Source of the DNA: Nitrospirota bacterium
GTDB lineage: Bacteria > Nitrospirota > Nitrospiria > Nitrospirales > Nitrospiraceae
Direction of reading: 5' to 3'
Length of the DNA stretch: 64,000 nucleotides
Assembly: GCA_040755395.1 (NCBI GenBank)
Contig: JBFMAX010000002.1
Location: 372,001 to 436,000 of the forward strand
The notes under the pieces are model-generated. The model saw nothing but the letters and a program-made list of their open reading frames with translations, searched no databases and had not been told where the DNA came from. The position numbers were made by a program, and so were the translations under genes. This document shows positions 915 through 49,662 of the stretch, piece by piece. Positions within the stretch are counted from its first letter, which is position 1. Each line of letters starts with the position of its first letter.

Positions 915-978
915 ACGTGTGACCTCCCTTCCGGTGAAGAGCCGAAACCGGTCGCCTCGGGAACGCGCCGCTTCGGTC

Positions 979-2022
979 TCAGTGGGGAAGACGACTGTCG
1001 AGGGCGGGAGGTCTAGTGGAAAGGCGCTGCTGGTACAAAAGAACCAGTCGATCGGTCAGCCGGACCGCGCGGATCGGCAAGGTCTCTTCAATCGTGCGTA
1101 ACGCCCTGTCGGGGTGTGTCGTGTCGAAAACGCCGGTGACGGAAACCGACTGCAACGCCGGATCGGGAAGGAGAATATATCCCCTACTGTAGCGGCTCAA
1201 CTCATGCAGGACTTCCGCGAGCGGTTGATTGTCGAAGACGAGCCGGCCTCGGCGCCAGGCGACGACACGATCGGCGTCTACCTCGCGAACCGGGCCGATG
1301 GCGCCGTCAGGGCCGTAGGTCGTCTGCTGCCCGCTGGAGAGACGGGTCGGCGGGCTCTGCCCGGCGGAGATCAGCACCTGATGCTGAAGGACGGTCACGG
1401 TGACACGGTCGTCCTCGGCTCGCACATTGAAAGCCGTGCCCAGCGCCCGCGTGACGCCGGCCGCCGCCGCCACCTCGAACGGGCGGGACGAATCGGGAGC
1501 AACCGTAAACATCGCCTCGCCTTCGTGCAGCGTAATGCGGCGAGCCTCATCGGAGAACATCACGGAGACGGCGGTGCCGGTGTTCATCTCCATGACGGAC
1601 CCGTCGGCCAGCGGCACCGTCCGATGCTCGCCGACGGCGGTGCGATAATCCGCGGACCAATGCAGCGTCTCCGCCAGCCACCCTGCGCCGACCGTAGCCG
1701 CCGCCAGACTGGCGGCGAGCGCGGCGACACGGAGCTGACGACGGCGCCGTCGCGAGGAATGTCGGGCGTCTCCCGACGCGCCCGCTCGTTTCTCGATCGC
1801 CTGCTCGATCTCGCACACATCTTCGGGTGCGAGCGCGTCCAATCCGTTCCAGAATGCCGCCAGATTCGCATAGGCGGCGGCATGCGTCGGCGCGGCGGCC
1901 AGCCACGCTTCAAATCGCTCGCGGTCCGAAACAGGTGTCTCGTGGTCCTGCAGACGAACCACCCACTCGATGGCTTCAGTGGTCGCGTCACCGCGGCGAT
2001 CATGTTGCGCTCGTGCGTTCAT
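979..2022 (-). CDS. fecR: FecR-type anti-sigma regulator
   Basis: This 347-residue inner-membrane regulator relays occupancy of the TonB receptor to the ECF sigma factor. The cytoplasmic N-terminal part has the family start (EAIEWVVRLQD, then an FEAWL motif). A single membrane helix lies near residues 98-118, followed by the periplasmic FecR domain with HEGEAMFTVAPD and VTRALGTAFNVR. The C-terminal ~70 residues form an STN-like unit (LAEVLHELSRYSRGYI). The gene sits between fecI (61 bp upstream) and the receptor (64 bp downstream), the standard fecI-fecR-receptor order. Length and motifs are normal. The signalling role is inferred from the family. Confidence 0.9.
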   Translation of the reverse strand: MNARAQHDRRGDATTEAIEWVVRLQDHETPVSDRERFEAWLAAAPTHAAAYANLAAFWNGLDALAPEDVCEIEQAIEKRAGASGDARHSSRRRRRQLRVAALAASLAAATVGAGWLAETLHWSADYRTAVGEHRTVPLADGSVMEMNTGTAVSVMFSDEARRITLHEGEAMFTVAPDSSRPFEVAAAAGVTRALGTAFNVRAEDDRVTVTVLQHQVLISAGQSPPTRLSSGQQTTYGPDGAIGPVREVDADRVVAWRRGRLVFDNQPLAEVLHELSRYSRGYILLPDPALQSVSVTGVFDTTHPDRALRTIEETLPIRAVRLTDRLVLLYQQRLSTRPPALDSRLPH

Positions 2023-2083
2023 CAGGTCCCTGATCGTGTACGACGTTTCAACGTCGGTTCGCCTCCAGTCACACCCGCACGCC

Positions 2084-2626
2084 TCAGGTCGACGCCTCGT
2101 CGATCCGGCGCTTACAGTGTGCCAGGGCCTTGATCATGTGCTTGACCACCGTGCTTCGCGCGATGCCCAACCGCACCGAGACTTCGGCATAGCTCAGGTG
2201 CTTGAACTTGTGCAGGATGAAGACCTCGCGGCATTTGGGCGGCAGCTCGGCGATGGCCTGCTTCAAAATTTCCACTTGTTGCTTGGTGAAGATTTGCGTC
2301 TCAGCAGAGGGACGGGCGTCCGGGATGTCGTCCCGGATCTCCTCGTCGGAGAGATGGTCGCCACGGTGCTGCCGGCGGCGGAGATGATCGGTGGCCAGGT
2401 TCGCGGCGATTCGGAAGAGCCAGGCGCGAGGATTCTCAATGGCCACGGCCGGCGCGCTTTGCATCAGGCGCAGGAAGGTATCCTGCAGCACATCCGACGC
2501 CGTCTCGGGACATTTCAGCCGGCGGAGGAGGAACTGCCGAATGTCGTGCGCATGGGGTTGAAAACGCTCCGCCCACTCGCGTTGGGTCACGGCTAGCCCC
2601 GTCTTCTGGATTGAACTCGATCCCAT
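2084..2626 (-). CDS. fecI: ECF RNA polymerase sigma factor, FecI-like
   Basis: This 180-residue sigma factor has region 2 near residues 25-95 (DVLQDTFLRLMQ, PRAWLFRIAANLATDHLRR) and region 4 near residues 120-175, with an HTH in YAEVSVRLGIARSTVVKHM. This is the FecI subgroup used for iron-chelate uptake. It is upstream of fecR and of the edge-truncated receptor and probably directs transcription of that receptor when its ligand is bound. No Fur-like site could be made out in the 120 bp upstream, unlike the second system in this window. Confidence 0.92.
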   Translation of the reverse strand: MGSSSIQKTGLAVTQREWAERFQPHAHDIRQFLLRRLKCPETASDVLQDTFLRLMQSAPAVAIENPRAWLFRIAANLATDHLRRRQHRGDHLSDEEIRDDIPDARPSAETQIFTKQQVEILKQAIAELPPKCREVFILHKFKHLSYAEVSVRLGIARSTVVKHMIKALAHCKRRIDEAST

Positions 2627-2749
2627 CGGTCGCGCCGCCTATGCGCGTTCCGTAACCGCCACGGTACGCGCGCCGGCGCACGGAAGGGAATGTTCAAATT
2701 CCAGAGGGAGAAGAAGACCGAGTCGTCGAGGGATGAGCGGGCGGCGGGC

Positions 2750-3502
2750 TTATGTGCGAAGGCCTCCCGCCAGAGTCAGGAGCATCGCGGTGACATACAT
2801 GAGGGCGATGCCCGCGAAGACGCCGAGGGCCATCTGCACCCGGCGCGTGACGGTATAGGTGAGAGCGATGAGGGCCAGAATGACGTACAACAAGGAACCG
2901 GCGGCCAGCGTGTACCAGGCCACCGATAAATACGGGGAAGGATCGAGCCCACTGAGCACGGCGCCCACGCAGGTCGGCGCGCCGGCGAGCAGGCCCAGCA
3001 GCAGCACATCCTTCGCCGGGATCGAGTTCCGGCCGGCCGCGCCGACGATCCCGAACCCCTCGGTGCCGTTATGGAGCGCAAAGCCGGCGACCAACAGCGC
3101 GCTCAACGCCCACTCTCCGTTGGTGTAACTGGTTCCGATGGCCAGGCCTTCCCCGAGGTTGTGCAGACCCATGCCCAGCGCGATGAGGTACGGCAACGAG
3201 AGGACGCGCGTCAGGCGGCGGTGCTTGCCCAGTTGACTCTCTTCCAACACGACCAGGCCGACGAAGCTCACCAGCAAACAGCCGAGCAACACGATCCACG
3301 ACACGACGTCCCGGGCGCCGGTCAGCTCCACCGCTTCATGCATGAGATCGAAAAAGAGATAGACCAGCACGCCGGTCGCCAGACCGATCAGTCCGGCTTC
3401 CCACGCGCGGGACAGCATGCGGCTGGCGAGGAGCGCGAAACCGATGCCCAGATAGACGGGAAAGACGCCGGCTACGGCGCCCATGCCGATGAGTTCAATC
3501 AT
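2750..3502 (-). CDS. ZIP family divalent metal permease
   Basis: This 250-residue integral membrane protein has about eight hydrophobic segments. It carries both ZIP metal-binding signatures: HNLGEG at residues 114-119 in helix IV and HNGTEG at 144-149 in helix V. The family imports zinc, iron or manganese into the cytoplasm. A short charged loop near residues 88-98 takes the place of the His-rich loop of eukaryotic ZIPs. The gene lies between two iron-receptor systems on the same strand, which makes iron or zinc import plausible. It has its own ~200-bp upstream gap, so co-transcription with them is not certain. Confidence 0.88.
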   Translation of the reverse strand: MIELIGMGAVAGVFPVYLGIGFALLASRMLSRAWEAGLIGLATGVLVYLFFDLMHEAVELTGARDVVSWIVLLGCLLVSFVGLVVLEESQLGKHRRLTRVLSLPYLIALGMGLHNLGEGLAIGTSYTNGEWALSALLVAGFALHNGTEGFGIVGAAGRNSIPAKDVLLLGLLAGAPTCVGAVLSGLDPSPYLSVAWYTLAAGSLLYVILALIALTYTVTRRVQMALGVFAGIALMYVTAMLLTLAGGLRT

Positions 3503-3700
3503 CCTGCAACAGCGGTGATCCGATCAGGCCGTTGCGGCCGCGCGCGATCGTCCCGATCGGTCCCTCTACTGTAGACGTTTCTGCGGCGCAGTACCACACC
3601 TGATTTTGAGCCGGTGCGCGGCCGGGGCCGTGCGCCCTCTGCGCCCGCCTCGTTAGTCTCGCCGTTTCCGCATGCCTCGCTTGTCTTGCCCGTCTCGCTT

Positions 3701-6265
3701 CTAATTGAACTCCAGCTTGATCGAGGCGATGACGGTGAGCGGCGCACCGGGAATGATGGAGGTCCGGCTTTCCTGCGTGCCTTCGAAAAAGCGCTGGTCC
3801 AGCAGGTTCCGGAAATTGATCGAGGCAATCAGATTGGTCCGCCGCATCACCTCCGGTTTGCGGTAATACAGCGCCGCATCCAGGCGCACGAAGCCGGGGA
3901 TCTGGAACGTATTGTCGATATCCCCCTGGCGTTTGCCGGCCGCATAGATGCCACCGCCGATTCCAAACCCTTCGAGCAGGCCTGACTGGACGGTGTACAC
4001 GGTCCAGACGCTGCCGCTGTGAAGAGGCGCGTTGGGAAGCGTATGGCCTTCACGGACGACGGCATCACCTCTGGTGATCTCGGCATCAATGTAGGCGTAG
4101 GCGGCGATCACATCCCACCCGGGGAGAATTCGGCCGGTGACATCCAGCTCCACGCCCTGACTCCGCTCCTCCCCCGTCTGCACGATATCGCCAAAGGCGG
4201 GAGGCACACCGGTAAAGAGAAATCGCTGGACGTTCTTTTTCTCGATGCGGAAGACAGCCGTGTTCGCAAAGAGTCTCCCTTCGATCAGCTCCGTCTTGAT
4301 CCCGGCTTCATATTGCCGTGCCGTCTCGGGCTCCGGAAGCGTGCCTGCCGGGGTCATGGCCCTGAAGACGCTGAAATTGTCCAACTGCCTCGCCGATTTG
4401 CTGAAGTTCGCGTAGAGCGAGACCGGCTTGACCGGCTGGTACACCAATCCGACCATCGGGTTAAAGAAGGTATCCGTCTGCTTCGTCTCCGTGCCGGCCA
4501 GTCGGTCATCAAAGTGCTGGTCGAAGATATCGAAACGGCCGCCGAAGGTGAGCTTCAGGTTCTCCCTCAGCTCGATCAGGTCCGAGACGTAGGCGCCCAG
4601 GATATTGTTCGTCAACGTCCCGTCAAAGGTCGTGCTGAACGCGCCCACGTTGAAGGAGTAAACAGGATTGAAGATGTTCATCGTATTGGATACGCCGGCG
4701 AAGTCCACGCGGGTCCTGTGCGTTTCCCGTCCGAGTTCTACGCCGGCGAGCATGCGATGTCCGATCGGCCCGGTGTGGAATCGGCCCACCAGCTCATTCT
4801 GCAGATAATGGCTCTGGACTAGCTGAGGGATCTTGAATCCTGCCAGAAACAGCGTCTCATTGTCGGTGGCGAGGAAGCTCGGCTCGACGCTGTTGTAGTC
4901 CTCGCTGGCCACCGCCGCGCGGAAGGCGGAGCGCCAGGCCCATGCATCCGAGAACTCATGGAGGAGGATCAGGGTGGCTTTGCCTTGGTTGTAAGTATTC
5001 CGGCGAAAGGGATCTCCAAGGAAGCGACTGACCGGAATATTCGCGACGCCGGTCCCGACCGCGACCAAGCCTCGGTCGATGGGTCTCGTGTCATAGAGGA
5101 ACTCCCCTTCGAAGCGGAAGTTTGTCCGTGAGCCGAGCTGCCAGCCGATCGTCGGCGCGGCAAAGAATCGCTCACTGACCACGAGATCTCTGAAGCTATG
5201 GGCATGTTCGTAGACGCCGTTGAAGCGATGCAGCAGGGACTTGCCGGACATCAGAGGTCCGGAAACATCGATCGTCGGCCGATAGAGGTTATAGCTGCCG
5301 ACGATCATGTCCGCCGCATAGTAAGGACTCGACAACGGCTTCTTCGTGATCAGGTTGACGATTCCGCCCGGATCGGTTCGGCCGTAGAGAAACGAGCCGG
5401 GACCCTTCAGCACCTCGATCCGTTCGAGATTGGCGACTTCCCGCTGGGTCCGAGAGGAAAACGTGCTGTCGTCGCGGAAGCCGTTCTTGAAGATGTTCAC
5501 GTCCGTGGTGAACCCTCGGATGTTGAAACGCTCGGCCCGGCCGCCGGCGCCGTGCGGGATCGAAGTGCCGCTGATGTTCCGTATCACGTCTTCGATCCGT
5601 ACGGCCTTCCGGTCGTCCATCACTTGCCGGGTGATGACATCGACCGACAGCGGGAGGTCGCGCTGGGGTGCCGGCAACCGCGTGGCCGAGGACACCTCCT
5701 CGACCGCATAGTCCCCCTCCCGCACCTCCTTGACCACGACCTCCGGCACCTTGACCGGTTTCTGGCCGTCGCGCTCCGCCCTGTCCTCCGGCGTTTCGTG
5801 CTCGCCGGATTGGGAGTCCGAGGAAGCGGCGCTGCGGTCATCGGACCGACGATGGAACTCTTTGACGAGCGTGATGGTGTTGGGAGCGGTAATCCGATAG
5901 TCCAAGCCGGTGTCTTTGAGTACAATCCGCAACGCGTCGCCGGGACGATGGAATCCGATCACTCCATCGGTCGTGAGCCCCTCCGTCATCTCCGACGTAA
6001 ACAGCAGTCGCAGGTTCGCTTGATCGGCGAATTGTGTCAGGGCCGGTCCGAGTGGTTGAGGCTCGATATGGAATTCGACCGTTCGCACTTGCGGCGACTC
6101 CGGCGTGGCTTGCGCGACTCGCGCGTGAACCGGCCCATGTCGGCCAATGGGGTGCGGCTGGTCGTGTCGCAGGTCCGGCTGGGCTTGAGCATGGATCGGT
6201 TGCATCGCCAGCGCGGCAATGATGAATGCGCGGCACGTTGCGGTCGCTCTCGGAGCTGACGCCAT
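3701..6265 (-). CDS. TonB-dependent siderophore receptor with STN signalling domain
   Basis: This complete 854-residue outer-membrane receptor has a signal peptide (cleavage near HAQAQ), an STN domain (about residues 60-135), a low-complexity acidic linker and a TonB-box-like VKVPEVVVKEV. A plug domain follows with RIEVLKGPGSFLYG and GGIVNLITKKP, then a 22-strand-type barrel ending in KLEFN with a terminal aromatic region. It is the last gene of a minus-strand run tonB-fecI-fecR-receptor. Its linker is nearly identical to that of the receptor at the left edge (both have DGQKPVKVPE), which suggests duplication. Siderophore type is inferred from the family; the substrate is unknown. Confidence 0.93.
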   Translation of the reverse strand: MASAPRATATCRAFIIAALAMQPIHAQAQPDLRHDQPHPIGRHGPVHARVAQATPESPQVRTVEFHIEPQPLGPALTQFADQANLRLLFTSEMTEGLTTDGVIGFHRPGDALRIVLKDTGLDYRITAPNTITLVKEFHRRSDDRSAASSDSQSGEHETPEDRAERDGQKPVKVPEVVVKEVREGDYAVEEVSSATRLPAPQRDLPLSVDVITRQVMDDRKAVRIEDVIRNISGTSIPHGAGGRAERFNIRGFTTDVNIFKNGFRDDSTFSSRTQREVANLERIEVLKGPGSFLYGRTDPGGIVNLITKKPLSSPYYAADMIVGSYNLYRPTIDVSGPLMSGKSLLHRFNGVYEHAHSFRDLVVSERFFAAPTIGWQLGSRTNFRFEGEFLYDTRPIDRGLVAVGTGVANIPVSRFLGDPFRRNTYNQGKATLILLHEFSDAWAWRSAFRAAVASEDYNSVEPSFLATDNETLFLAGFKIPQLVQSHYLQNELVGRFHTGPIGHRMLAGVELGRETHRTRVDFAGVSNTMNIFNPVYSFNVGAFSTTFDGTLTNNILGAYVSDLIELRENLKLTFGGRFDIFDQHFDDRLAGTETKQTDTFFNPMVGLVYQPVKPVSLYANFSKSARQLDNFSVFRAMTPAGTLPEPETARQYEAGIKTELIEGRLFANTAVFRIEKKNVQRFLFTGVPPAFGDIVQTGEERSQGVELDVTGRILPGWDVIAAYAYIDAEITRGDAVVREGHTLPNAPLHSGSVWTVYTVQSGLLEGFGIGGGIYAAGKRQGDIDNTFQIPGFVRLDAALYYRKPEVMRRTNLIASINFRNLLDQRFFEGTQESRTSIIPGAPLTVIASIKLEFN

Positions 6266-6387
6266 GGATCCCCTCCTGGTTACGCGGTTCGAGGCTTTCG
6301 CGCAAAAGCGGCTCGGTGTCAGCTACTAAGACGAACGAGGCGGGGAAACTTGCAATGGGGTTTTTGCGGTTGATTCGGGAGGGAGGA

Positions 6388-7392
6388 CTATTGGCGGAGC
6401 AGAACCAGATAAGGCGTCAGGCTGATTGTGCGAACGCGGAGCACACGCTTGACGGCTTCCAGGGCGCCGTCCGGATCGGCGGTCTCGAACACCCCCGTCA
6501 CCCGAAGGTCGCGCAGACGGGAATCGGCGACGACGATGCGGCCTCGACGGTAGCGATTCAGTTCCTCGACCACGGCGGCCAGGGGCTGCGAGGCGAAGAT
6601 CAGCTTACCTCGCCGCCACGCGGCGGCCGACCGCAGATCGGCAAGTTCGATCCGACCGAGTCCCGTGTCGGGCGAATAGCCGACGCGTTCCCCTTCCAGG
6701 AGTGTGACGGCGTCCATGCCGTCGCCGGCCGGGCCGGACACGCGAACCGCGTGTTCGAGAACGGTCACCGTAACCGCGCCATCTTGTAGGCGGACTGCGA
6801 ACTCGGTCCCGAGAGCGCGGGTCGCCACCCCGGCGCTCGTTACGGTGAACGGCCGGGTCGGATCCGGCGCCACGACGAAGTCGGCTTCCCCGCGGAGCAG
6901 GCGCACCGAGCGGGCCTTGCCGGTGATGGTCACGTCGAGGGCGGTATCGGTATTGAGGAACAGGGTGCTGCCGTCGGCCAGCGTGACACGCCGTTGCTCG
7001 CCGGTCGCGGTCCGATAATCCGCCAAATCGGCCCGCATGATGTCGAGCATGCCGGCAGACCAGAGACCGCCGGCCACCAGGAGCACCGTCGCCGCGACGG
7101 CCCAGGTGCGCGCCGGTATCCTCGCCGTTCTCACCTCCGGGCGAAGCGATGCGGGTTGCGCAGGCGGCTCTGGGTTGATATGGAGGGGCGGATTGAGGGG
7201 AAGCCGTCCCAGACCTTTCCACAAGGCCTCGGCCTCCTGAAATGCCGCTTCATGCGCCGGGCTGTGAGCCCGCCAGTTCGCGCATCGGCGTTGCAGATCG
7301 TCCGTGGCCTGACCCGACTGCAACTGCACCAGCCAGTCGATGGCCTCGTCCACCAGCCGTTCGCTTGGATCTTGCGGATCGGAGAGGTTCAT
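6388..7392 (-). CDS. fecR: FecR-type anti-sigma regulator (second system)
   Basis: This 334-residue transmembrane regulator belongs to the second iron-signalling system. The ATG at 7392 is used because the protein then begins MNLSDPQDPSERLVDEAIDWL, the normal FecR start. The longer open frame upstream has no family similarity. A membrane helix lies near residues 105-125. The FecR domain contains LLRGEADFVVAPD and GVATRALGTEFAVR, and an STN-like C-terminus follows (LAAVVEELNRYRRGRIVV). It lies 130 bp after fecI and 122 bp before its receptor. It is clearly related to the FecR at 979-2022. Confidence 0.9.
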   Translation of the reverse strand: MNLSDPQDPSERLVDEAIDWLVQLQSGQATDDLQRRCANWRAHSPAHEAAFQEAEALWKGLGRLPLNPPLHINPEPPAQPASLRPEVRTARIPARTWAVAATVLLVAGGLWSAGMLDIMRADLADYRTATGEQRRVTLADGSTLFLNTDTALDVTITGKARSVRLLRGEADFVVAPDPTRPFTVTSAGVATRALGTEFAVRLQDGAVTVTVLEHAVRVSGPAGDGMDAVTLLEGERVGYSPDTGLGRIELADLRSAAAWRRGKLIFASQPLAAVVEELNRYRRGRIVVADSRLRDLRVTGVFETADPDGALEAVKRVLRVRTISLTPYLVLLRQ

Positions 7393-7522
7393 GGAGCGCT
7401 GTTCCCTCGGCGGCTTCCGAGCTCCTGCGCCGATCCGGATGTGCGCGGGAAACATGCCGAGAGGTCGTACTCTATAAGACGATCGGCCGGACAAGATCAA
7501 TACCATCTTCGTGCGCCGTGGC

Positions 7523-8038
7523 TCACGGCCAATTCGAGCGAAGGCGGCGGCGGCAATGTTTGAGGGCTTGCGCGATATACTTGGCCACCATGCTTTCTGA
7601 GACGCCGAGGTGTGCGGCGATCTCAGCATGGCTTTTCCCCTCCAGCCGGTTCAGGATGAGCGCCTGCCGGCATTTAGGAGAGAGTTCCGCCACGGCCGCC
7701 GAGAGGATCGCCACCGTCTGCTTGGCATGGAGGGCATCCTCGGCGGACGGCTCCCGGCTGGGCACCTCGACGGGAAGCGGGTCAGGGGAAAGGATCTCAA
7801 TCTGCCGTTGAGAACGCCGCAGGTGATCGATCGCCAGATTCGAGGCGATCCGAAACAGAAAGGCGCGGGGATGCTCGATGGTGAGCCTCGGTCCCAGACT
7901 CACCAGTCGAAGATACGTTTCCTGAACACAATCGGCGGCCAGATCGTGACAACCCAGCTTGCGTGTCAAAAAGGCCAGCAGGTCCCGGCGATACTGTTGG
8001 AACGAAGTCAGCCAATCGACTCTCTGAGTACCCGCCAT
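7523..8038 (-). CDS. fecI: ECF RNA polymerase sigma factor, FecI-like (second system)
   Basis: This 171-residue sigma factor starts at an ATG at 8038 (MAGTQRVDWLTSF). The upstream extension of the frame overlaps tonB and is not credible. Region 2 contains DCVQETYLRLVS and PRAFLFRIASNLAIDHLRR. Region 4 carries the HTH HAEIAAHLGVSESMVAKYI. It starts 10 bp after the tonB stop codon, so the two are very probably one transcript. It should direct transcription of the receptor at 3701-6265 on a FecR signal. Confidence 0.91.
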   Translation of the reverse strand: MAGTQRVDWLTSFQQYRRDLLAFLTRKLGCHDLAADCVQETYLRLVSLGPRLTIEHPRAFLFRIASNLAIDHLRRSQRQIEILSPDPLPVEVPSREPSAEDALHAKQTVAILSAAVAELSPKCRQALILNRLEGKSHAEIAAHLGVSESMVAKYIAQALKHCRRRLRSNWP

Positions 8039-8048
8039 TTGCAACTCT

Positions 8049-9029
8049 TCACTCCAGCCGGTAGCCGATCGGAATCTGAACGACGACCTGCGGTCGTCCC
8101 AGCGGATGGGCCAGCGACACGGGAGAGGCCCGGTGCAACAGTGCGACGGCATCCTGATCGAGCATGGTGTATCCGGAACTTTGAACGACCGTAATGTCGG
8201 AAATGGACCCGTCAGCCTGAATGACGGCTTCCAGGACGACGTTGCCTTGCCAACGATTGCTCTTGGCCAGATAGGGATATCGCTTGAGGCGCTCCACCTG
8301 GACATGCAGAGCGTCGGCGAGCCAGCCATAGTCCGCCCGCAGCGGCCTGGACACCGCCCCTGCCCGCTCCTGCGCGGGAGGGCGCGTCACCAGTTTGGCG
8401 ACGTCTTGGATCGCCGGCTCCTGCACGAGAGGCGAGTCTTGTTCAGGATCGACCTCCGGCGGAGGGAGGTCCGCCTGTCCTGCCGTTGAGAGCGGGACCG
8501 GATCGTCGACGGAGGTCTGCGGCTGGACGTTCGTGGGGTCGCGCGGAATCGGTGTGTGCCGGCGAGGCGCCGGAGATGACGCGGCCGGCTTCGGGACGGC
8601 GTCGCGCACTGTTTGCCGCGCCCGGTCTACCACGATCTCGGCCGTGTCGTGGTCGAGCGGGACGGAAGGATGGGAAACCTCCGAGATCGTCGCGGGATCG
8701 GCTGCTGTGTTGTCCGCGCTCGGAGAAGATTCAAGGGGCGGAGCGACGGGCCGAGTGGGTTCGCTTTCCGATGTGGCCGGCGGCGATTCCGGCGCCATGT
8801 CGAACGAGGACGGCACCTCGGCGGCGAACGGCGACGGATGGGTCTGGATGATTGTCACGTCCCACTGGAAGACCTTGCGACGGGGCAATGGATTCCAATC
8901 GGCGGCCACTACGAGGGCGGTTCCGACCAGCAGGCTGTGAAGTGTCAGCGATATCAGCCACCCACGGAGAATGCCGCCGGTGGTTGAAACCGGCAATCGA
9001 CGGGCGCGCGAGACATTGCGATGCATCAT
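8049..9029 (-). CDS. tonB: TonB family energy transducer
   Basis: This 326-residue periplasm-spanning protein couples the proton-motive force to outer-membrane receptors. One N-terminal membrane anchor lies near residues 22-44, followed by a long Pro/Glu/Ser-rich stretch that bridges the periplasm. The TonB C-terminal domain covers about residues 240-326 (KRYPYLAKSNRWQG, then ADGSISDITVVQSSGY). No exbB or exbD lies in the window, so these must be supplied elsewhere. It is first in the tonB-fecI-fecR-receptor run and has a Fur-like box just upstream. The start codon is uncertain by one codon because two ATGs are adjacent and no clear ribosome site is visible. Confidence 0.88.
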   Translation of the reverse strand: MMHRNVSRARRLPVSTTGGILRGWLISLTLHSLLVGTALVVAADWNPLPRRKVFQWDVTIIQTHPSPFAAEVPSSFDMAPESPPATSESEPTRPVAPPLESSPSADNTAADPATISEVSHPSVPLDHDTAEIVVDRARQTVRDAVPKPAASSPAPRRHTPIPRDPTNVQPQTSVDDPVPLSTAGQADLPPPEVDPEQDSPLVQEPAIQDVAKLVTRPPAQERAGAVSRPLRADYGWLADALHVQVERLKRYPYLAKSNRWQGNVVLEAVIQADGSISDITVVQSSGYTMLDQDAVALLHRASPVSLAHPLGRPQVVVQIPIGYRLE

Positions 9030-9057
9030 GAAGTCCGTGTTCGGTGCGAAAATCGGT

Positions 9058-9076
9058 GAAAATGAGAACTGTTATC
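9058..9076 (-). promoter_or_regulatory. Candidate Fur box ahead of the tonB operon
   Basis: The 19 bases at 9058-9076 match the classical Fur consensus (GATAATGATAATCATTATC) at 14 of 19 positions. They begin 29 bp upstream of the tonB start at 9029, inside an AT-rich patch that stands out from the GC-rich surroundings. Position and content fit iron-dependent repression of tonB-fecI-fecR-receptor. No clear -35/-10 pair could be chosen with confidence. Confidence 0.6.
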
Positions 9077-9310
9077 ATGTTAATATTACAACGATGACGG
9101 GGGCGACGGACATGTTCATTTTCCAGATCGTGAAAAGCGGCCCAGGCCGGTCCTTGGACTGTGCCGGAGCATGCCTGTCCCGTCTGCCGAACTGCTCTTG
9201 TCGTGCGTCGCGCCGAAGGAGGAATGGCGGAACGGCGGGAATGTTGCGAGGAACCGAGGCGGGTGAGTCGGCCGGGTCGCGCGGTATCTATGATAGGGTC
9301 CGCCGGTGTC

Positions 9311-9502
9311 TCATGGTTTCTTGGCCGCGAACACCGTCGCGTCGCAACTGATGTATTTGATCTGCTTCATGGGGATGATGATGACTTCTTTCGGAGAATC
9401 GACCTCCAGCACCTCCATGTCGTCGCTGATGGTGTGACGGATCGCGTCTTTGACGAGCAGCTCTTGATTGTCGGTGAAGATGACTTTGACCCAATATTGC
9501 AC
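9311..9502 (-). CDS. Small conserved-looking protein of unknown function (63 aa)
   Basis: The GTG at 9502 is chosen because an AGGAG ribosome site ends 7 bp upstream; the longer frame to 9532 has none. The protein begins with a beta-rich pattern (YWVKVIFTDNQELLVKDA) and continues with EVIIIPMKQIKYISC. The hydrophobic alternation suggests a compact, mostly beta, Sm-like or PilZ-sized fold, but I do not recognise a family. It is not obviously in an operon: proC ends 86 bp upstream of its start. The codon pattern and ribosome site support a real gene. Confidence 0.6.
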   Translation of the reverse strand: MQYWVKVIFTDNQELLVKDAIRHTISDDMEVLEVDSPKEVIIIPMKQIKYISCDATVFAAKKP

Positions 9503-9588
9503 GGGATGACTCCTGGATAGAGATTGCGTCACTGAATGGCCGGCGCCGGATTCGCGTATCCGCCTGGCCGCGCATCGCTTCCCCTCCC

Positions 9589-10416
9589 CTACACGGTGCC
9601 GTGCTCCTTGCCCAACTCGGTTGAACGTTTTGCCGCCGCCTCGACGGCCGATATCAGCGCCGCCCGCAGTCTCCCCTTTTCCAATTGATACAGACCGGCG
9701 ATGGTCGTCCCGCCCGGCGAGGCAACGCGGTCTTTCAAGCGCCCGGGAGGTTCGCCGCTCTCGATCATCATGCGGGCCGCTCCCAGGACGGTCTGCGCCG
9801 CCAGCAGTTCCGCCACGTGCCGCGGAAGCCCCATCTTCACGCCTCCGTCGGCCAACGCCTCGATCATGACGTACACGTAAGCCGGTCCGCTGCCGCTCAG
9901 GCCGGTGACGGCGTCCATCAGCCGTTCCTCGACGACCACCACCTTACCGACCGATTCGAACACGGTCCGCGCGGTGTTCTGATCGTCCTCCGAAAGTCCG
10001 TGGTTGAACGCCAATGCGGTGACGGCTTCCCGCACCGTGGAGGGTGTATTGGGCATGGCGCGGACGATCCGCGTGACGGCTTTGAGGTGCGAGGCCACTC
10101 GGGCGATCGGATAGCCGGCTGCGACCGAGAGGACGAGACTGTCCGCCGGTACGACCGGCTGAATGTCCTTCAGCACCTCGTCGAGCATTTGAGGTTCAAC
10201 CGACAAAATCATGATGTTCGCAAGTCCGGCTGCCTCTCTATTGTCGCCCGTCGTCTTGATGCGATATCGGTTTTTGAGGTGGTCGCGCCTGTCCGGAAGG
10301 ATATCGGTGGCGATGATCTGCTCCGGCCGGGCGGTGCCGGCCTGCAACAGTCCGGCGATCAATGCGTCCGACATGTTGCCGCCGCCCAGGAAGGCGAGCG
10401 TCTTTACCTTCAGCAT
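9589..10416 (-). CDS. proC: Pyrroline-5-carboxylate reductase
   Basis: This 275-residue cytoplasmic enzyme reduces 1-pyrroline-5-carboxylate to proline with NAD(P)H. The Rossmann motif FLGGGNM lies at residues 9-15. The C-terminal dimerisation domain has the family signature around SGSGPAYVYVMIEALADGG and then SPGGTTIAGL. The ATG at 10416 gives the normal ProC N-terminus (MLKVKTLAFLGGG). There is no ribosome site before it, and the -10 hexamer TATAAT ends only 7 bp upstream, so the mRNA may be leaderless. No other proline gene is in the window. Confidence 0.95.
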   Translation of the reverse strand: MLKVKTLAFLGGGNMSDALIAGLLQAGTARPEQIIATDILPDRRDHLKNRYRIKTTGDNREAAGLANIMILSVEPQMLDEVLKDIQPVVPADSLVLSVAAGYPIARVASHLKAVTRIVRAMPNTPSTVREAVTALAFNHGLSEDDQNTARTVFESVGKVVVVEERLMDAVTGLSGSGPAYVYVMIEALADGGVKMGLPRHVAELLAAQTVLGAARMMIESGEPPGRLKDRVASPGGTTIAGLYQLEKGRLRAALISAVEAAAKRSTELGKEHGTV

Positions 10417-43371: not shown

Positions 43372-45255
43372 ATGGCTTCACGTGCGACCGTGACTCCCGA
43401 GTTGGTCACGATGCTGCGAAACAAGGCCACCCATCTGAGGATCGACAGCGTACGCGCGACGACGGAGGCCGGCAGCGGCCACCCGACGAGCTGCTGTTCG
43501 GCGGCCGATATCGTCGCGACGTTGTTCTTCGCGGTCATGCGATACGACTCCAAAGATCCCCGGCGTTCCGGAAACGACCGGTTCGTCCTGTCGAAGGGCC
43601 ACGCCGCGCCGCTGCTGTACGCCGCCTGGGCCGAAGCCGGCCTGTTCGACAAGGCCGAATTGCTCAAGCTGCGCACGTTGACCTCCGATCTCGAAGGCCA
43701 TCCGACTCCACGGCTTCCGTTCGTGGACGTCGCGACCGGCTCGTTGGGCCAGGGTTTATCCGCCGGCGTGGGCATGGCGCTGAACGCCAAGTATCTCGAC
43801 AAAGCCGACTACCGGACCTACGTCCTCTTGGGCGACGGCGAGTCGGTGGAGGGTGCGGTGTGGGAAGCGGTGGAACTCGCCCGCCACTATGCGCTCGACA
43901 ACCTCTGTGCCATTGTAGACGTGAACCGCCTCGGCCAGAGCGATCCGACGATGTTGCAGCACGACATGGAAGGGTACCGGTCGCGCTGGGCCGGATTCGG
44001 CTGGCACGCCGTCGTCGCGGACGGGCACGATATTCCGGCGTTGCTCGACGCGTTCGACGAAGCCGCGCGGACCAAGGGCAAACCGACGGTCATCCTCGCC
44101 CGCACGTTCAAGGGCCGCGGGATCTCCTTCGTCGAGAACAAGCCGGACTGGCACGGCAAGGCGCTCAAGAAGGGCGACGAGGCGAACCGGGCGATCGAAG
44201 AGTTGACGCGCCAACTGAAACCGATGGCCGGCGAATTGACGATCGGCCGTTCTTCCCCTCCCCAACCTCGAACCGCGAACCGCGAACCTCGAACCTGGGC
44301 GCCTATGCCTCCGCCAGCCTACAGGCCGACCGATCAGGTCGCGACGCGCGAAGCGTTCGGGTCGGCGCTGCTCGCCCTCGGCGAGGTCCACCCCTTGGTC
44401 GTGGCGCTGGACGCCGACGTGAAAAACTCCACCTACACGGAAAAGTTCGGCAAGAAGTTTCCGGACCGGTTTTTCGAGCATTTCATCGCCGAGCAAAACA
44501 TGATCGGCGCCGCCGCCGGCCTCGCCGCCTGCGGCAAGATTCCCTTCGCGGCGACGTTCGCCTGTTTCCTGACCCGCGCCTATGATTTCATCCGCATGGC
44601 GGCGATCGGCCAAGCCAATATCAAGCTGGTCGGCACCCATGTCGGGGTGAGCATCGGCGAGGACGGCCCGTCGCAGATGGGCCTCGAAGACATCGCGATG
44701 ATGGCCGCGCAGCCCGGCGTGGTGGTCCTCTACCCGTCGGACGCCGTGTCCATGCATCGACTGGTCGAAGCCGCGGCGCGGCATCGGGGCATGGTCTACC
44801 TCCGCGCCGGCCGGCCCAAGTCGCCTGTCTTGTACGGGAACGACGAAACGTTTCAGATCGGCGGCTCCAAGGTCGTGCGGCAGAGTCCTTCGGATGCGCT
44901 GACGATCGTGGCGGCCGGGGTCACCCTCTTCGAAGCCCTGAAGGCGCATGACCAGCTCAAGGCGGCCGGCATTGCGGTGCGGATCATCGACCTCTACAGC
45001 GTGGCTCCCATCGATCGCGCCACCTTGCTGGACAGCGCCCGCGCCACACAGGGCCGCGTGCTGACGGTGGAGGACCACTACGAGCACGGCGGGATCGGCG
45101 ATGCGGTGCTGAACGCGCTCGGCTCGGAAGGCATCAGGGTTCACAAGCTGGCGGTCCGGGAGATTCCCCGCAGCGGGAAGCCCGAGGAGTTGATCGACCA
45201 TTTCGGGATCGGAGCGCGCTCGATCGTGGAGACAGCCAAGCGGATCGTCAAATAG
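43372..45255 (+). CDS. tkt: Transketolase
   Basis: This 627-residue thiamine-diphosphate enzyme of the pentose phosphate and Calvin pathways moves two-carbon units between sugar phosphates. The N-terminal half has STKGHAAPLLY-like FVLSKGHAAPLLYAAW, GSLGQGLSAGVGMAL and the ThDP motif LLGDGESVEGAVWEA. The C-terminal half has FIAEQNMIGAAAGLAACG and FLTRAYDFIRMAAIG. AAGG-type ribosome sequence precedes the ATG. The linker (about residues 288-318) is unusual: Pro/Arg-rich and partly encoded by a 7-bp tandem repeat. A Crp/Fnr gene follows after 9 bp. Confidence 0.94.
   Translation: MASRATVTPELVTMLRNKATHLRIDSVRATTEAGSGHPTSCCSAADIVATLFFAVMRYDSKDPRRSGNDRFVLSKGHAAPLLYAAWAEAGLFDKAELLKLRTLTSDLEGHPTPRLPFVDVATGSLGQGLSAGVGMALNAKYLDKADYRTYVLLGDGESVEGAVWEAVELARHYALDNLCAIVDVNRLGQSDPTMLQHDMEGYRSRWAGFGWHAVVADGHDIPALLDAFDEAARTKGKPTVILARTFKGRGISFVENKPDWHGKALKKGDEANRAIEELTRQLKPMAGELTIGRSSPPQPRTANREPRTWAPMPPPAYRPTDQVATREAFGSALLALGEVHPLVVALDADVKNSTYTEKFGKKFPDRFFEHFIAEQNMIGAAAGLAACGKIPFAATFACFLTRAYDFIRMAAIGQANIKLVGTHVGVSIGEDGPSQMGLEDIAMMAAQPGVVVLYPSDAVSMHRLVEAAARHRGMVYLRAGRPKSPVLYGNDETFQIGGSKVVRQSPSDALTIVAAGVTLFEALKAHDQLKAAGIAVRIIDLYSVAPIDRATLLDSARATQGRVLTVEDHYEHGGIGDAVLNALGSEGIRVHKLAVREIPRSGKPEELIDHFGIGARSIVETAKRIVK
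44264..44298 (+). repeat. Heptamer tandem array inside the transketolase gene
   Basis: Five head-to-tail 7-bp units: AACCTCG, AACCGCG, AACCGCG, AACCTCG, AACCTGG. They encode part of the Pro/Arg/Asn-rich linker between the two halves of transketolase. Because 7 is not a multiple of 3, gain or loss of one unit would shift the reading frame. Confidence 0.85.
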
Positions 45256-45264
45256 CGACCGGCG

Positions 45265-45969
45265 ATGACGGCAACGGACCCCCTGCGGCGCATCCCCCTC
45301 TTCGACCTGCTCAATGAGCGGGACCGCCGTCGCCTGGCCGGCGAAGTCGTCGAGGCCCGTTATCGGAAGGGCGAATATATTTTCCGCGAGGGCGATCCGG
45401 CCGAGTATTTCCACATTCTTAACGAAGGCGCGGTCAAGTGCGTCAAATCCTCCCCGTCGGGAAAGGAGTGCACGCTCAAGGTCCTCATGCCCGGCGACCT
45501 GTTCTGCTGCGAGGCCGCGGTGTTCGACGGAGCCCCTCATCCGGGCAGCGCGGAGCCTCTGTGCGACGTCAGCATCCTCCGCGTGAGCAAGAAATCCTAT
45601 TTCGCGATGCTGCGCCGCAATCCCGACGCGGCGTTGGAAGTGATTAAGTACCTGGGCAAGCGCCTGAACGAGGCGCAGGAAAACGCCAAGATCCTGGCGC
45701 TCGACCGCGCCGACCAGCGGCTGGCGTCGCTGCTGGTGAAGCTGGCCGAACGGGTGGGAGTCCGGGAACCGGGCGGACTCCGCCTAGCGGTGCGCCTGAC
45801 TCGCCAGGATCTGGCGAACATGGTCGGGATCACGGTCGAGACGGCCATCCGCATCATGAGCCGTTTCAAGCGCGCCAAGCTGGTGTCCGGCAGCGCCGAG
45901 CACATCGTGATCCGTGATCTGACCGGGTTGAAGCACCTGGCCGCCGATCCTCTCGCCGTCCGCCGCTGA
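45265..45969 (+). CDS. Crp/Fnr family transcriptional regulator
   Basis: This 234-residue regulator has an N-terminal cyclic-nucleotide-binding-type beta barrel (IFREGDPAEYFHILNEGAVK, then LMPGDLFCCEAAVFDGAPH). A long dimer helix and a C-terminal HTH follow (LTRQDLANMVGITVETAIRIM). It lacks the N-terminal cysteine cluster of FNR; two cysteines occur in LFCCEAA. It follows transketolase by 9 bp and precedes NirK, whose upstream region has a half-conserved FNR-type palindrome. A nitrogen-oxide or redox response is plausible, but the ligand is unknown. Confidence 0.9.
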   Translation: MTATDPLRRIPLFDLLNERDRRRLAGEVVEARYRKGEYIFREGDPAEYFHILNEGAVKCVKSSPSGKECTLKVLMPGDLFCCEAAVFDGAPHPGSAEPLCDVSILRVSKKSYFAMLRRNPDAALEVIKYLGKRLNEAQENAKILALDRADQRLASLLVKLAERVGVREPGGLRLAVRLTRQDLANMVGITVETAIRIMSRFKRAKLVSGSAEHIVIRDLTGLKHLAADPLAVRR

Positions 45970-45999
45970 CTGACATCCCATCCGGCCCGTCTTGAGAAT

Positions 46000-46013
46000 A
46001 TGACCTAGATCAT
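46000..46013. promoter_or_regulatory. FNR/DNR-type palindrome upstream of NirK
   Basis: ATGACCTAGATCAT matches 7 of 10 defined positions of the TTGATnnnnATCAA site and is part of a longer near-palindrome (TATGACCTAGATCATA). It lies 84 bp upstream of the nirK start and 31 bp after the Crp/Fnr gene. It is a natural target for that regulator. Confidence 0.5.
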
Positions 46014-46096
46014 AGAATGGGTCGCGAGAACCGTCTATCCTTCCCGCGCGTGGTCTTTTCATCACAGGCTTGCCATCACTCCAGGAGGCATTTCCA

Positions 46097-47095
46097 ATGT
46101 TGCTTTCAGATCTGAGGATCGATCGTCGCTTAGGGTATGCGACGGCGTGGCTATTCGCCGTGAGCGTGTGGGCGGCGGGCTTCCCGCTGCACGACGCGTT
46201 GGCCAAAACTCACGCAGTCGAGATGACCGCCGTCGAGACCGAGGTGGTTATCGACGGGGGCGGAGAGAAATATAAGGCTTGGACTTTCAACGGTCAGTTC
46301 CCCGGTCCGGTGGTGCGCGTCACCGAAGGCGACACCATCAAGTTCACGCTGACGAACCCGGCGACCAACAAGAATCCCCATGCCATGGATTTCCACGCCG
46401 CCGAGGTGGACATGTTGAAGAACTATCGGGCGATCAACGCCGGGGAATCCGTCAGCTTCACGTTCGTCGCCAAAAAACCCGGCGTATTTTTCTACCACTG
46501 CGGGGCGCCGCCGATGATCCAGCACGTCGCCCGCGGGATGTTCGGCGCGATCATCGTGGATCCGAAAAATCCGAAAGCTTTGCCCAAGGCGGACCGGGAG
46601 TACGTGCTCATCCAGTCGGAGCTGTTCAAGAATCCCGACGACGTGCAAAGCATGTTCGACCGGAAATTCGATCACATGATTTTCAACGGCGGGGTCTTCA
46701 AGTATCACCCGTTCGTCACCGGCGGGCATGCTCTGGAGGCCAAGCCGGGCGAGCGGGTCCGGATCTATTTCATCAACGCGGGCCCGAACGAGTTCTCGGC
46801 CTTCCATCCCATCGGCGAGATCTGGGACAACGTCTATGAGAGCGGCAATCCGGCCAACAAGTTGAGCGGCGTGCAGACCTACGTCGTCGGTCCCGGCAGC
46901 GCCGCGACGTTCGACGTGGTCGTCGAATCGGAAGGCGCCTACCCGCTCGTCACTCACTCGTTGACCGGCGCTCTGCGCGGGGCCATTGCCGTGCTCGTCG
47001 CCAAGCCGGACGCCAAGCCCGCGCCGCTGATGCCGCACACCCCGTGGAAGGTCGCGATGCCACAGACGGAGATCACCCCGCCGTCCGCACCATAG
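46097..47095 (+). CDS. nirK: Copper-containing nitrite reductase (NirK-type multicopper protein)
   Basis: This 332-residue periplasmic enzyme reduces nitrite to nitric oxide. The ATG at 46097 has AGGAGG 8 bp upstream, and a signal peptide comes first (ATAWLFAVSVWAAGFPLHDA). Two cupredoxin domains follow. Type 1 copper ligands: His95, Cys135, His143, Met148 (HCGAPPMIQHVARGM). Type 2 ligands: His100, His134 and His287 (VTHSL). Catalytic Asp98 (HAMDFH) and His237 (SAFHPIG) are also present. All copper and catalytic residues are therefore present. The short type-1 loop resembles NirK of nitrifiers. A strong terminator follows, so the gene is probably monocistronic under Crp/Fnr-type control. Confidence 0.9.
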   Translation: MLLSDLRIDRRLGYATAWLFAVSVWAAGFPLHDALAKTHAVEMTAVETEVVIDGGGEKYKAWTFNGQFPGPVVRVTEGDTIKFTLTNPATNKNPHAMDFHAAEVDMLKNYRAINAGESVSFTFVAKKPGVFFYHCGAPPMIQHVARGMFGAIIVDPKNPKALPKADREYVLIQSELFKNPDDVQSMFDRKFDHMIFNGGVFKYHPFVTGGHALEAKPGERVRIYFINAGPNEFSAFHPIGEIWDNVYESGNPANKLSGVQTYVVGPGSAATFDVVVESEGAYPLVTHSLTGALRGAIAVLVAKPDAKPAPLMPHTPWKVAMPQTEITPPSAP

Positions 47096-47121
47096 CCGAG
47101 AAGAAAGCGGCATCACTGTGA

Positions 47122-47164
47122 CCGGCGGGGTCGGCCTGTGTGGCCACCCCGCCGGGTTTGTTTC
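47122..47164 (+). terminator. Rho-independent terminator after nirK
   Basis: A GC-rich stem (CCGGCGGGGT with ACCCCGCCGG, extended by GGCC/GGCC) with a short loop is followed by GTTTGTTT. This is the clearest terminator in the window. Confidence 0.8.
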
Positions 47165-47227
47165 CGGCGGCCGTCAGGGACGCTGACGTCGCCGAGGACG
47201 GGCGACGACCGGGAAGCCGGGTGACGC

Positions 47228-47866
47228 ATGCTGAGTAAGGGATGCAGGGCAAACTCCGTGATTCCGGCGGAGAACTGCCGCCGTTGGGTCTTTGTCGCCG
47301 TCCTCGCGTTGATCAGTCCGTCCCCAGCCTTAGCCCAGGAAGCCTTCCTTGAAGTCCTCCCGCTCCGGCCGTTCAGCTTCGACGTGGCCTTTCGCCAGCA
47401 GACGTTTGCGCCCGATGACCGGGAAATCGGGATTCAGGCCGGTTTTACCGCGTTGCGGTATGGGAATCTCGAGGTGAGAACCATCTATCAATTCTTCAGC
47501 ATCCACGCGGAGGAGACGAAGACCGACCAGCATGCGCTGTTCGTCAATCCCCGGTGGAACAATTTCATCGATATCCTGGATTTCCCGAAAGGGAAGCCGA
47601 TCAGCCGGATCATCCGGCACGTGCTGTTCGGACCGTTGGAGGATCGGGCGGTGCCGTATGTCGGGCTGTTGGGAGGAGCGGTGATGCCGGGACCGGGCCA
47701 TGACACGCCGGGCCATCTCGTGGGCGGACAGGTCGGCGTGCGTTTTCCGGTGGCCGGCGGCTTGGCGGTGGACGTCACCCTGCAGTACGCACAATACGGG
47801 GTGGATTTCCGGGGCGAGGCGGGGCAGGCGCAACAATGGGTGTTTTTGACCGGCATTCGGTATTAG
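47228..47866 (+). CDS. Outer-membrane beta-barrel-like protein of unknown function
   Basis: This 212-residue exported protein has a signal peptide (VFVAVLALISPSPALAQ). The mature part alternates polar and apolar residues and ends in an aromatic residue (FLTGIRY), as small outer-membrane barrels do (DVAFRQQTFAPDDREIGIQ, QVGVRFPVAGGLAVDV). It overlaps the next gene, a solute-binding lipoprotein, by 31 bp, so the two are co-translated. I do not recognise a family. A pore or receptor for the downstream binding protein is a reasonable guess. Confidence 0.6.
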   Translation: MLSKGCRANSVIPAENCRRWVFVAVLALISPSPALAQEAFLEVLPLRPFSFDVAFRQQTFAPDDREIGIQAGFTALRYGNLEVRTIYQFFSIHAEETKTDQHALFVNPRWNNFIDILDFPKGKPISRIIRHVLFGPLEDRAVPYVGLLGGAVMPGPGHDTPGHLVGGQVGVRFPVAGGLAVDVTLQYAQYGVDFRGEAGQAQQWVFLTGIRY

Positions 47867-48879
47867 CGCTGAACGCGACGGGGTGGGCGTGCGCGCTTGG
47901 GCTGGGGTTCATCCTCCAAGGGTGCGGCCTGGTGTTCGACGCGATCCAATATATTCAGCCCGTCGCTACCAACGAGCTCGACGCGATCTGCGCCCGCAAG
48001 CGGTTGCAGGTGGGCATGGGGTTCGAACCCCGGCGGCCGTTCGTGTTTCCCGCGATTTTCACGGACGAAGGCCTCCGTGTGACCGGGCTGGATGTAGAGT
48101 TGGTGCGGGAAATCTCGGCGGCGCTGACCGCGCGGTGCGGAGGCGAGCCCGTCGTCCCGGTTCTTCATCTGGTTCCCTATCGCGCGCTCTTCGTGCTCTT
48201 GCACGAGGGCAAGCTGGATCTGTTCGTGTCCGCCACCACGGCGAACGTGCCCTCTCCGACGAGGGCCGGACTCGCCTACTCGGTGCCGTATTTCACGAAC
48301 GGCGGTCTCGGTATGATTACCCGTCGGAACGGGGTGGCCGAGCGTGTGCGCGAGATCCTGCAACGTGATCCTCACGCCGTGTACGAGCCGGCGAAGATTC
48401 GGACGGCGTTGGTGGGATTGACGGTGGCGGTGCAGGAAGGAACGACCGCCCACCTGTATGCAGAAGCCAATCTCGCCGGGGTCCGCCTGGTCCTGTGCGA
48501 TTCCCTTCCCGCAGCGTTCGAGTCGCAAGATCCGCCCATCGACGTGATCGTGGGCAAACAGCCGATCCTCCGGTTCACGGTGTCGCGGGTTCGGAAAGAT
48601 TGGCGGGTCCTCGAAGCGGAAGACGGGAAGCCGATCATCCTGACCAGGGAGGACTATGCCGTGGTGATGGCGGAAGAAAGTTATCGACTGCGGAGGTTTA
48701 TCAACGATCTCTTGTTCCGATTGGACGCCGGAGGCAGGTTGGCCGACATGCGGCGCCGCTGGTTGGAGGAACCCTATGCCTTTCCACGGCGAGCTGCGGC
48801 AGAAGGTCTCCCGTTTGCGGCGGAGAATATGCCGCGCCACTACGATCAAGGGCGGTGCCGGCGCGCGTCGGGCGGCTGA
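47836..48879 (+). CDS. Solute-binding-protein-like lipoprotein (SBP_bac_3 type)
   Basis: This 347-residue protein has a signal segment ending in lipobox LQGC. The body matches family-3 periplasmic binding proteins: LQVGMGFEPRRPFVFP, GLDVELVREISAAL, LDLFVSATTANVPSPTRA and AVVMAEESYRLRRFIND. The family binds amino acids and small anions, or serves as a sensor. No ABC permease or ATPase is adjacent, so it could be an orphan binder or signalling input. It overlaps the upstream barrel gene by 31 bp and is followed within 34 bp by a heme protein. Confidence 0.78.
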   Translation: MGVFDRHSVLALNATGWACALGLGFILQGCGLVFDAIQYIQPVATNELDAICARKRLQVGMGFEPRRPFVFPAIFTDEGLRVTGLDVELVREISAALTARCGGEPVVPVLHLVPYRALFVLLHEGKLDLFVSATTANVPSPTRAGLAYSVPYFTNGGLGMITRRNGVAERVREILQRDPHAVYEPAKIRTALVGLTVAVQEGTTAHLYAEANLAGVRLVLCDSLPAAFESQDPPIDVIVGKQPILRFTVSRVRKDWRVLEAEDGKPIILTREDYAVVMAEESYRLRRFINDLLFRLDAGGRLADMRRRWLEEPYAFPRRAAAEGLPFAAENMPRHYDQGRCRRASGG

Positions 48880-48912
48880 CACTGCTCGCCAAGCATGAGA
48901 AGGGACAGAGAT

Positions 48913-49662
48913 ATGAGGCGACGCCGAAAAAGACGATGGTGGGTTTTCGTAGCGGGACTGCTCGTGATGCTGCCGCCGCAGGGCTCCGCGGTTTCGAGGG
49001 AAGAAGCGCAGGAAACGGCTCATTTCCTGGCGAGCCTGCTTGATGCCGGGCGGGTCGTGATCGATCGAAACCAGTCCTTGATCGATGATCCCCACAAGGG
49101 GGACAAGGGATTCACGCCGGAGGTGTTCGAAGCGCAGGTCGTGGAAGAATTCAAGGCGCGGACCGGGATCGATCTTGGTCGGCCGGAATCGGCGCCGCTT
49201 CCTTCATCGGCGAGGGAGTTGCTGCTCGGGCTGCTCGACGCGAGCAAAGAGGTAGTGGCCGATGCCCAGTTGGTGATCAATCAACGGGGGGTCGGCTACA
49301 AGAACTTTATCCCGGCGACCTTCGGCAGTCAGGCGGCGATTCGGTTTTCGCGGCGATCCCCTGTCCGACTGAAGCAGACGGCGCTCCATCCGAGAAATCT
49401 GAAGAACGCGCCGGACGAGCACGAAACGGAGATCTTGCGGCGGCTGGCCGACCAGCCCGCCCCGGCATCGCCGGTCAGCGAGCTGGTCGAGGGCGGGACC
49501 GCACTACGGCTCATCGATCCGATCTACTACGAAAAGGACTGCCTCAAGTGTCACGGGGAACCGGCCGGCGAAGAGGATATTTCCGGTTATCCCAGAGAAG
49601 GCAAACATGAAGGCGACCTCGCCGGCGCGATCAGCGTGACGATTCCGTTCACAAAACAATAA
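48913..49662 (+). CDS. DUF3365/Tll0287-like c-type heme protein
   Basis: This ~249-residue exported protein starts at an ATG at 48913 behind AGGGA. A signal segment (WVFVAGLLVMLPPQGSA) precedes a Tll0287-like domain with NFIPATFGSQAAIRFSRRS. One c-type heme motif, CLKCH, lies at residues 210-214, and the C-terminus reads HEGDLAGAISVTIPF. Such proteins are periplasmic heme sensors or electron carriers. It follows the barrel and binding-protein genes and lies 1.8 kb after NirK. A decayed relative lies at 51399-51783. Confidence 0.82.
   Translation: MRRRRKRRWWVFVAGLLVMLPPQGSAVSREEAQETAHFLASLLDAGRVVIDRNQSLIDDPHKGDKGFTPEVFEAQVVEEFKARTGIDLGRPESAPLPSSARELLLGLLDASKEVVADAQLVINQRGVGYKNFIPATFGSQAAIRFSRRSPVRLKQTALHPRNLKNAPDEHETEILRRLADQPAPASPVSELVEGGTALRLIDPIYYEKDCLKCHGEPAGEEDISGYPREGKHEGDLAGAISVTIPFTKQ

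Follow-up and report, generated by a model that had tools for sequence, protein, structure and literature searches.

A regulator, a nitrite reductase and three envelope proteins are encoded in a row in a 64,000-nt stretch of Nitrospirota bacterium GCA_040755395.1 (contig JBFMAX010000002.1, positions 372,001-436,000, forward strand; hereafter the window), and comparison with related genomes showed that the row consists of two separable units. The first comprises the Crp/Fnr-family regulator (Crp) and the predicted copper nitrite reductase NirK, and the second a trio of a small outer-membrane barrel, an SBP_bac_3-fold lipoprotein (solute-binding protein, SBP) and a Tll0287-like c-type heme protein; the two are mostly held together in genomes lacking amoA. 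The modules are probably separately controlled, and we propose, with moderate confidence, that they are adjacent modules of which the trio serves as a periplasmic module sensing a ligand, or redox state or nitric oxide (NO). The features concerned, in window positions, are as follows.

43372-45255, forward strand: transketolase gene, conserved in the syntenic block, upstream of the other members and 9 bp 5' of the Crp gene
45265-45969, forward strand: Crp/Fnr-family regulator, module 1 (PF00027, E = 1.5e-20; HTH_Crp_2, E = 4.8e-18)
46000-46013, no strand assigned: palindrome ATGACCTAGATCAT (ATGAYNNNNRTCAT), candidate Crp operator, 97 bp 5' of the nirK start
46097-47095, forward strand: predicted copper nitrite reductase NirK, module 1 (TIGR02376, 200.9 bits; PDB 4kns, 355 bits)
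47122-47163, forward strand: GC-rich hairpin and T-tract 3' of nirK, possible terminator (region z-score -2.5)
47228-47866, forward strand: predicted small 8-stranded outer-membrane barrel, module 2 (AlphaFold2 model and structural matches)
47836-48879, forward strand: SBP_bac_3-fold lipoprotein, module 2 (PF00497, E = 3.9e-9; lipobox Cys codon at 47923-47925)
48895-49662, forward strand: Tll0287-like (sCache_heme) secreted c-heme protein, module 2 (PF11845, E = 1.6e-25; start possibly at 48913)
49540-49554, forward strand: CLKCH heme c attachment motif, read from the sequence and invariant in the heme-protein alignment

The named relatives of the window's Nitrospira-type genome include N. defluvii (locus L194), N. 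moscoviensis (L209) and many Nitrospira metagenome-assembled genomes (MAGs). Among 118 Nitrospiraceae genomes (presence counted at E <= 0.001), Crp-family and NirK-like proteins were each found in 112 and Tll0287-like proteins in 111, paralogs included, and the SBP and the barrel were found in 83 and 79, respectively. The SBP gene lay within 6 kb of nirK in 49 genomes, all of them with a Crp ortholog beside NirK. This linkage was seen in 49 of the 57 amoA-lacking genomes having both genes and in none of the 18 such amoA-positive genomes (Fisher p = 2e-11, for related and hence not independent genomes). The amoA-positive Nitrospira kept the trio away from NirK and without Crp, either near genes for DNA polymerase I, Adhesin_E and Lgt or beside genes for an amino-acid permease and arginase. 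In loci L142 and L149, which are one and the same contig and represent one lineage, the transketolase gene is followed directly by the trio, Crp and NirK being missing, and Crp-NirK occurred without the trio in 14 genomes. Because of these three kinds of locus, Crp-NirK and the trio were recognized as separate units. All 118 genomes matched the nitrite oxidoreductase model TIGR03479 below its cut-off, so that this model did not discriminate among them.

Within module 1, the Crp ortholog adjoined NirK in 67 of the 71 genomes having it. The 14-bp palindrome ATGAYNNNNRTCAT, mostly located 90-150 bp 5' of the nirK start, was found in exact form at 38 of the 40 nirK loci linked to the trio, with a near match in the other two, and was present in all seven Crp-bearing nirK loci without an adjacent trio (45/47 Crp-bearing loci in total) and in none of eight nirK loci without Crp. 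Since the palindrome thus tracks the Crp-bearing nirK loci, its predicted pairing with the regulator is strongly supported. Across the 1.56 Mb scanned, 38 of its 43 occurrences were at nirK and none lay within 260 bp 5' of any barrel gene; a second match in the window, at 42816, lies inside a coding region. A single operon under Crp control was rejected as the default reading because the palindrome marks no gene of the row other than nirK and, in the window, nirK is followed by a terminator-like hairpin. The hairpin is the weak part of this argument, as the consensus terminator scan did not list 47122-47163 and a hairpin with a T-tract was not conserved in form in all relatives. FNR-type oxygen sensing was rejected, because the regulator lacks the N-terminal Cys cluster holding a 4Fe-4S centre. 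Its sensor domain (within 45265-45969) has three invariant Cys (59, 81 and 82) and a fourth, Cys 69, that is nearly invariant; they may form a site for metal, redox or NO. For comparison with NnrR/DNR-type NO regulators, which bind DNA in an NO-dependent way, the analysis supplies a conserved palindrome only.

The window NirK scored 200.9 bits against TIGR02376, under the model cut-off of 296.3, and its closest solved structure was 4kns (355 bits), which we take to be Nitrosomonas europaea NirK and whose file title reads multicopper oxidase type 1. Alignment to 4kns and 3wi9, judged by inspection, placed all type-1 copper ligands (His, Cys, His, Met), the type-2 His ligands and the catalytic Asp and His, identifying NirK by its ligand residues as a copper nitrite reductase predicted to reduce nitrite to NO. 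In the amoA-positive genome G041, NirK is encoded between amoB and a gene for a secreted bacterial globin (L282, 4771-9767). The gap of approximately 420-650 bp between nirK and the barrel gene in relatives is not mere spacing, because it contains a conserved small open reading frame. This encodes a secreted protein of approximately 115-130 amino acids with three invariant Cys, present in 35 loci, which include the NirK-trio loci of the examined set with a long nirK-barrel gap (for example L194:7987-8337, approximately 117 amino acids). It was missing from the 132-bp gap of the window (47096-47227) and the 74-bp gap of N. moscoviensis, and the window's genome has only a weaker paralog, located elsewhere. 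Strong matches occurred in 87 genomes, in 60 of which, six of them amoA-positive, the gene adjoined NirK; the protein is thus NirK-associated. HMA_2 matched one of five such proteins, weakly and below its cut-off (E = 0.0023), and the protein possibly handles metal as a partner of NirK.

The sequence-only reading had placed the five genes at 45265-49662 in this order on one strand, with overlapping barrel and SBP genes, a closely following heme gene and no ABC transporter, and each of these points was verified: the overlap is 31 bp, the SBP-heme gap is 15 bp from the first ATG or 33 bp from the ATG at 48913, and the SBP gene has neither an ABC permease nor an ABC ATPase gene as a neighbour. 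That reading would have fallen had the neighbours not been conserved together; gene order was in fact conserved across Nitrospira genomes, and the arrangement, seen again in dozens of genomes from many genera, is far beyond chance. The transketolase gene in the conserved block, the extra small gene in most relatives, the hairpin after nirK and the candidate Crp-type operator are additions to that reading. Of 91 loci with sufficient flanking sequence, 83 had the barrel, SBP and heme genes side by side, a lower bound, since the non-contiguity of L144 and L145 may be an artefact of a better-scoring second heme copy hiding the first. Among the eight exceptions, no heme gene was seen in three, and in the rest the best heme match lay further off. 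With an alignment profile, 29 of 32 sampled Nitrospiraceae had the SBP, against none of the 116 other Nitrospirota sampled. A pattern scan of 84,980 species (one genome each) retained 80 loci, labelled Nitrospira, Nitrospiraceae, Nitrospirae or Nitrospirota except for two bins labelled Nitrosospira that are named NOB2 and CMX; the scan used short patterns from the alignment, which would miss distant relatives, and a single-sequence query gave no match. Judged by this distribution of sequences, the trio is a conserved, lineage-specific unit of nitrifying Nitrospira. No description of it was found in the open-access literature searched.

The barrel had no Pfam, NCBIfam or PDB sequence match. Its AlphaFold2 model, built from 24 sequences (mean predicted local distance difference test score, pLDDT, 73), showed a signal helix and eight long strands, and its best structural match was NspA (Z 16.1; root mean square deviation 2.6 A; 145 residues aligned). 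At moderate model confidence, the protein is predicted to consist of a signal peptide and eight antiparallel membrane strands, as in 8-stranded outer-membrane barrels. The model of the SBP (pLDDT 78) showed a two-lobed SBP fold matching amino-acid-binding proteins. In LAO/ArgBP-type proteins, an Asp holds the alpha-amine of the ligand and an Arg its carboxylate. The amine-anchoring Asp was replaced in 28 of 28 SBP sequences, and the carboxylate Arg was kept in 16 and replaced in 12; the lipobox Gly-Cys and four other Cys were invariant. An SBP_bac_3 amino-acid-binding protein of an ABC transporter was therefore rejected: the fold fits, but the Asp is lost, the Arg is variable, and no ABC permease or ATPase genes were found near the trio in the loci examined.

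The heme protein (255 amino acids) is stand-alone, matches PF11845 and carries a CxxCH motif (CLKCH) that is invariant across the alignment, and it thus belongs to the sCache_heme family. Outside CxxCH, Cys is lacking from the window protein and from the mature part of 51 of 55 trio members, so that these proteins have no counterpart of the axial Cys of Tll0287. The protein was assigned neither to sCache_heme Cluster 1 (stand-alone, redox type, Cys/His ligation), because the axial Cys ligand is missing, nor to Cluster 2 (NO sensor, with slow NO release from ferrous heme), which requires fusion to a signalling module. In this family, a signalling-fused member without the axial Cys binds NO tightly, and a stand-alone member with Cys/His ligation does not (PMC12889525; bioRxiv 2026). 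In the tree, the trio heme proteins formed a group with alphaproteobacterial relatives and two paralogs of the window's genome (100/99 support), to which the other Nitrospirota members did not belong, though several branches are long and the joins inside this group are unsure. The alphaproteobacterial relatives adjoin hybrid kinases, and a stand-alone paralog without the axial Cys in the window's genome (L293, G000:C2:156000-166000, 3839-9999) lies upstream of genes for a methyl-accepting chemotaxis protein and then a CheA-like protein. Because these relatives adjoin kinases or a chemotaxis protein, kinship points more to signalling in trans than to a simple electron carrier as the role of the trio heme protein. 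The Tll0287-like family has thirteen matches in the window's genome, both stand-alone ones and ones fused to signalling domains; the gene for another paralog (L294, G000:C1:39000-48500, 373-5070) overlaps a gene for a trypsin/FGE-sulfatase fusion and is followed by a CHASE2-guanylate cyclase gene.

We propose the following scenario for the two modules. The Crp/Fnr protein would bind the ATGAYNNNNRTCAT palindrome upstream of nirK and, in response to a cytoplasmic signal (redox, NO or metal), may tune NirK and with it the conversion of nitrite to NO. The barrel may be the route by which a small solute crosses the outer membrane, the SBP-fold lipoprotein, presumably at the outer membrane, may bind a ligand other than a standard alpha-amino acid, and the secreted c-heme Cache protein without the axial Cys may report redox state or NO. 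The three proteins would interact, and their output partner would be encoded elsewhere, a sensing or redox module with a distant partner being suggested by the lack of an adjacent ABC transporter or kinase. Several points weigh against this scenario: no sensor kinase or chemoreceptor was found beside the trio in any mapped locus; the trio stays near NirK in most amoA-lacking genomes, which would be unneeded if it were fully independent; stand-alone sCache_heme members are redox-like; and a Cys-to-Ala mutant gained no tight NO binding, showing that Cys loss alone is insufficient (PMC12889525). A nitrifier-specific envelope receptor of three parts, whose barrel, lipoprotein and soluble, NO-binding c-heme Cache protein would jointly pass a signal in trans to a chemoreceptor or kinase, is a tentative proposal that we regard as rather unlikely; if true, Nitrospira would read the periplasmic NO or redox level with a kind of sensor not described before.

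It also appears unlikely that the trio serves electron transfer, with the c-heme protein carrying periplasmic electrons, for example to NirK, on an outer-membrane scaffold of barrel and lipoprotein. The CxxCH heme c, the redox-like behaviour of stand-alone family members (PMC12889525) and the nearness of NirK, a periplasmic reductase, in 49 genomes are consistent with such a role, but the trio persists without an adjacent NirK, a single heme and one small barrel form no obvious conduit, the redox-type axial Cys is missing, and the relatives of the heme protein in the tree adjoin signalling genes. The sequence-only reading had suggested a sensing or electron-transfer system for nitrogen oxides, formed by the proteins next to nitrite reductase. 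Its sensing part gains from the membership of the heme protein in a family with an NO-binding branch (PMC12889525), but a joint system with NirK is not supported. A system in which both modules jointly act on nitrite or NO, the linkage in canonical nitrite oxidizers reflecting this, is improbable: many genera, with proteins roughly 50-75% identical, keep the linkage, whereas the genes upstream of transketolase vary (commonest gene in 12/27 loci), but the trio lacks an adjacent NirK in amoA-positive genomes and L142/L149, 14 genomes have Crp-NirK only, the candidate operator marks nirK alone, and a terminator-like hairpin follows nirK in the window. Moreover, part of the linkage may be inertia, because the downstream flank is also fairly conserved, its commonest gene (22/29 loci) being nearly as syntenic. 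Uptake or scavenging of a solute (metal, amine, peptide or heme), with import by the barrel, capture by the lipoprotein and a side role for the heme protein, likewise seems improbable, since the SBP fold, invariant Cys suggesting a rigid binding protein, and an adjacent amino-acid permease and arginase in some amoA-positive genomes are offset by lost amino-acid anchor residues and a module without an ABC transporter or TonB-type receptor.

The dedicated regulator and candidate operator, neither of which was present at those nirK genes of amoA-positive Nitrospira that were examined, make the control of NirK directly testable, a point of interest for the question of why nitrite oxidizers retain a nitrite reductase that forms NO. 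The trio adds uncharacterized envelope proteins common to N. defluvii, N. moscoviensis and amoA-positive Nitrospira, and its heme protein breaks the simple rule that stand-alone members are of the Cys/His redox type.

Compared with known systems, the barrel shares its fold with NspA, PagL, OprF, OmpA and OmpW (Z 12.7 to 16.1), but identity is only 7-16%, and function is not transferable. The SBP resembles T. maritima ArgBP (6svf) and AncCDT-1 (5t0w) in fold and profile, but differs in being an outer-membrane-type lipoprotein with extra invariant Cys, a lost amine-binding Asp and a variable Arg. With Tll0287 (PDB 5b82) and the DUF3365/sCache_heme family PF11845 (PMC12889525), the heme protein shares the domain, the CxxCH motif and its stand-alone secreted nature; unlike Tll0287, it has no axial Cys, is encoded with a barrel and an SBP lipoprotein and falls in a subfamily marked by a GxG(F/Y)K(G/N)F(I/L/V)PA motif. 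The stand-alone DUF3365 proteins of Sinorhizobium meliloti (L267) and Aureimonas (L266) fall in the same clade, with approximately 36-41% identity and no axial Cys, but their genes overlap a hybrid kinase gene, whereas no kinase gene adjoins the window heme gene. An NnrR-like regulator has been predicted in an N. defluvii-like MAG (PMC8510549); it and the Crp described here are both Nitrospira Crp/Fnr proteins, and the former, which may be a different protein from the nirK-adjacent Crp, is predicted to respond to nitrogen oxides. Finally, the copper ligands of NirK align with those of the nitrifier-type NirK 4kns, but canonical Nitrospira NirK differs in its pairing with a Crp/Fnr gene and a palindromic site.

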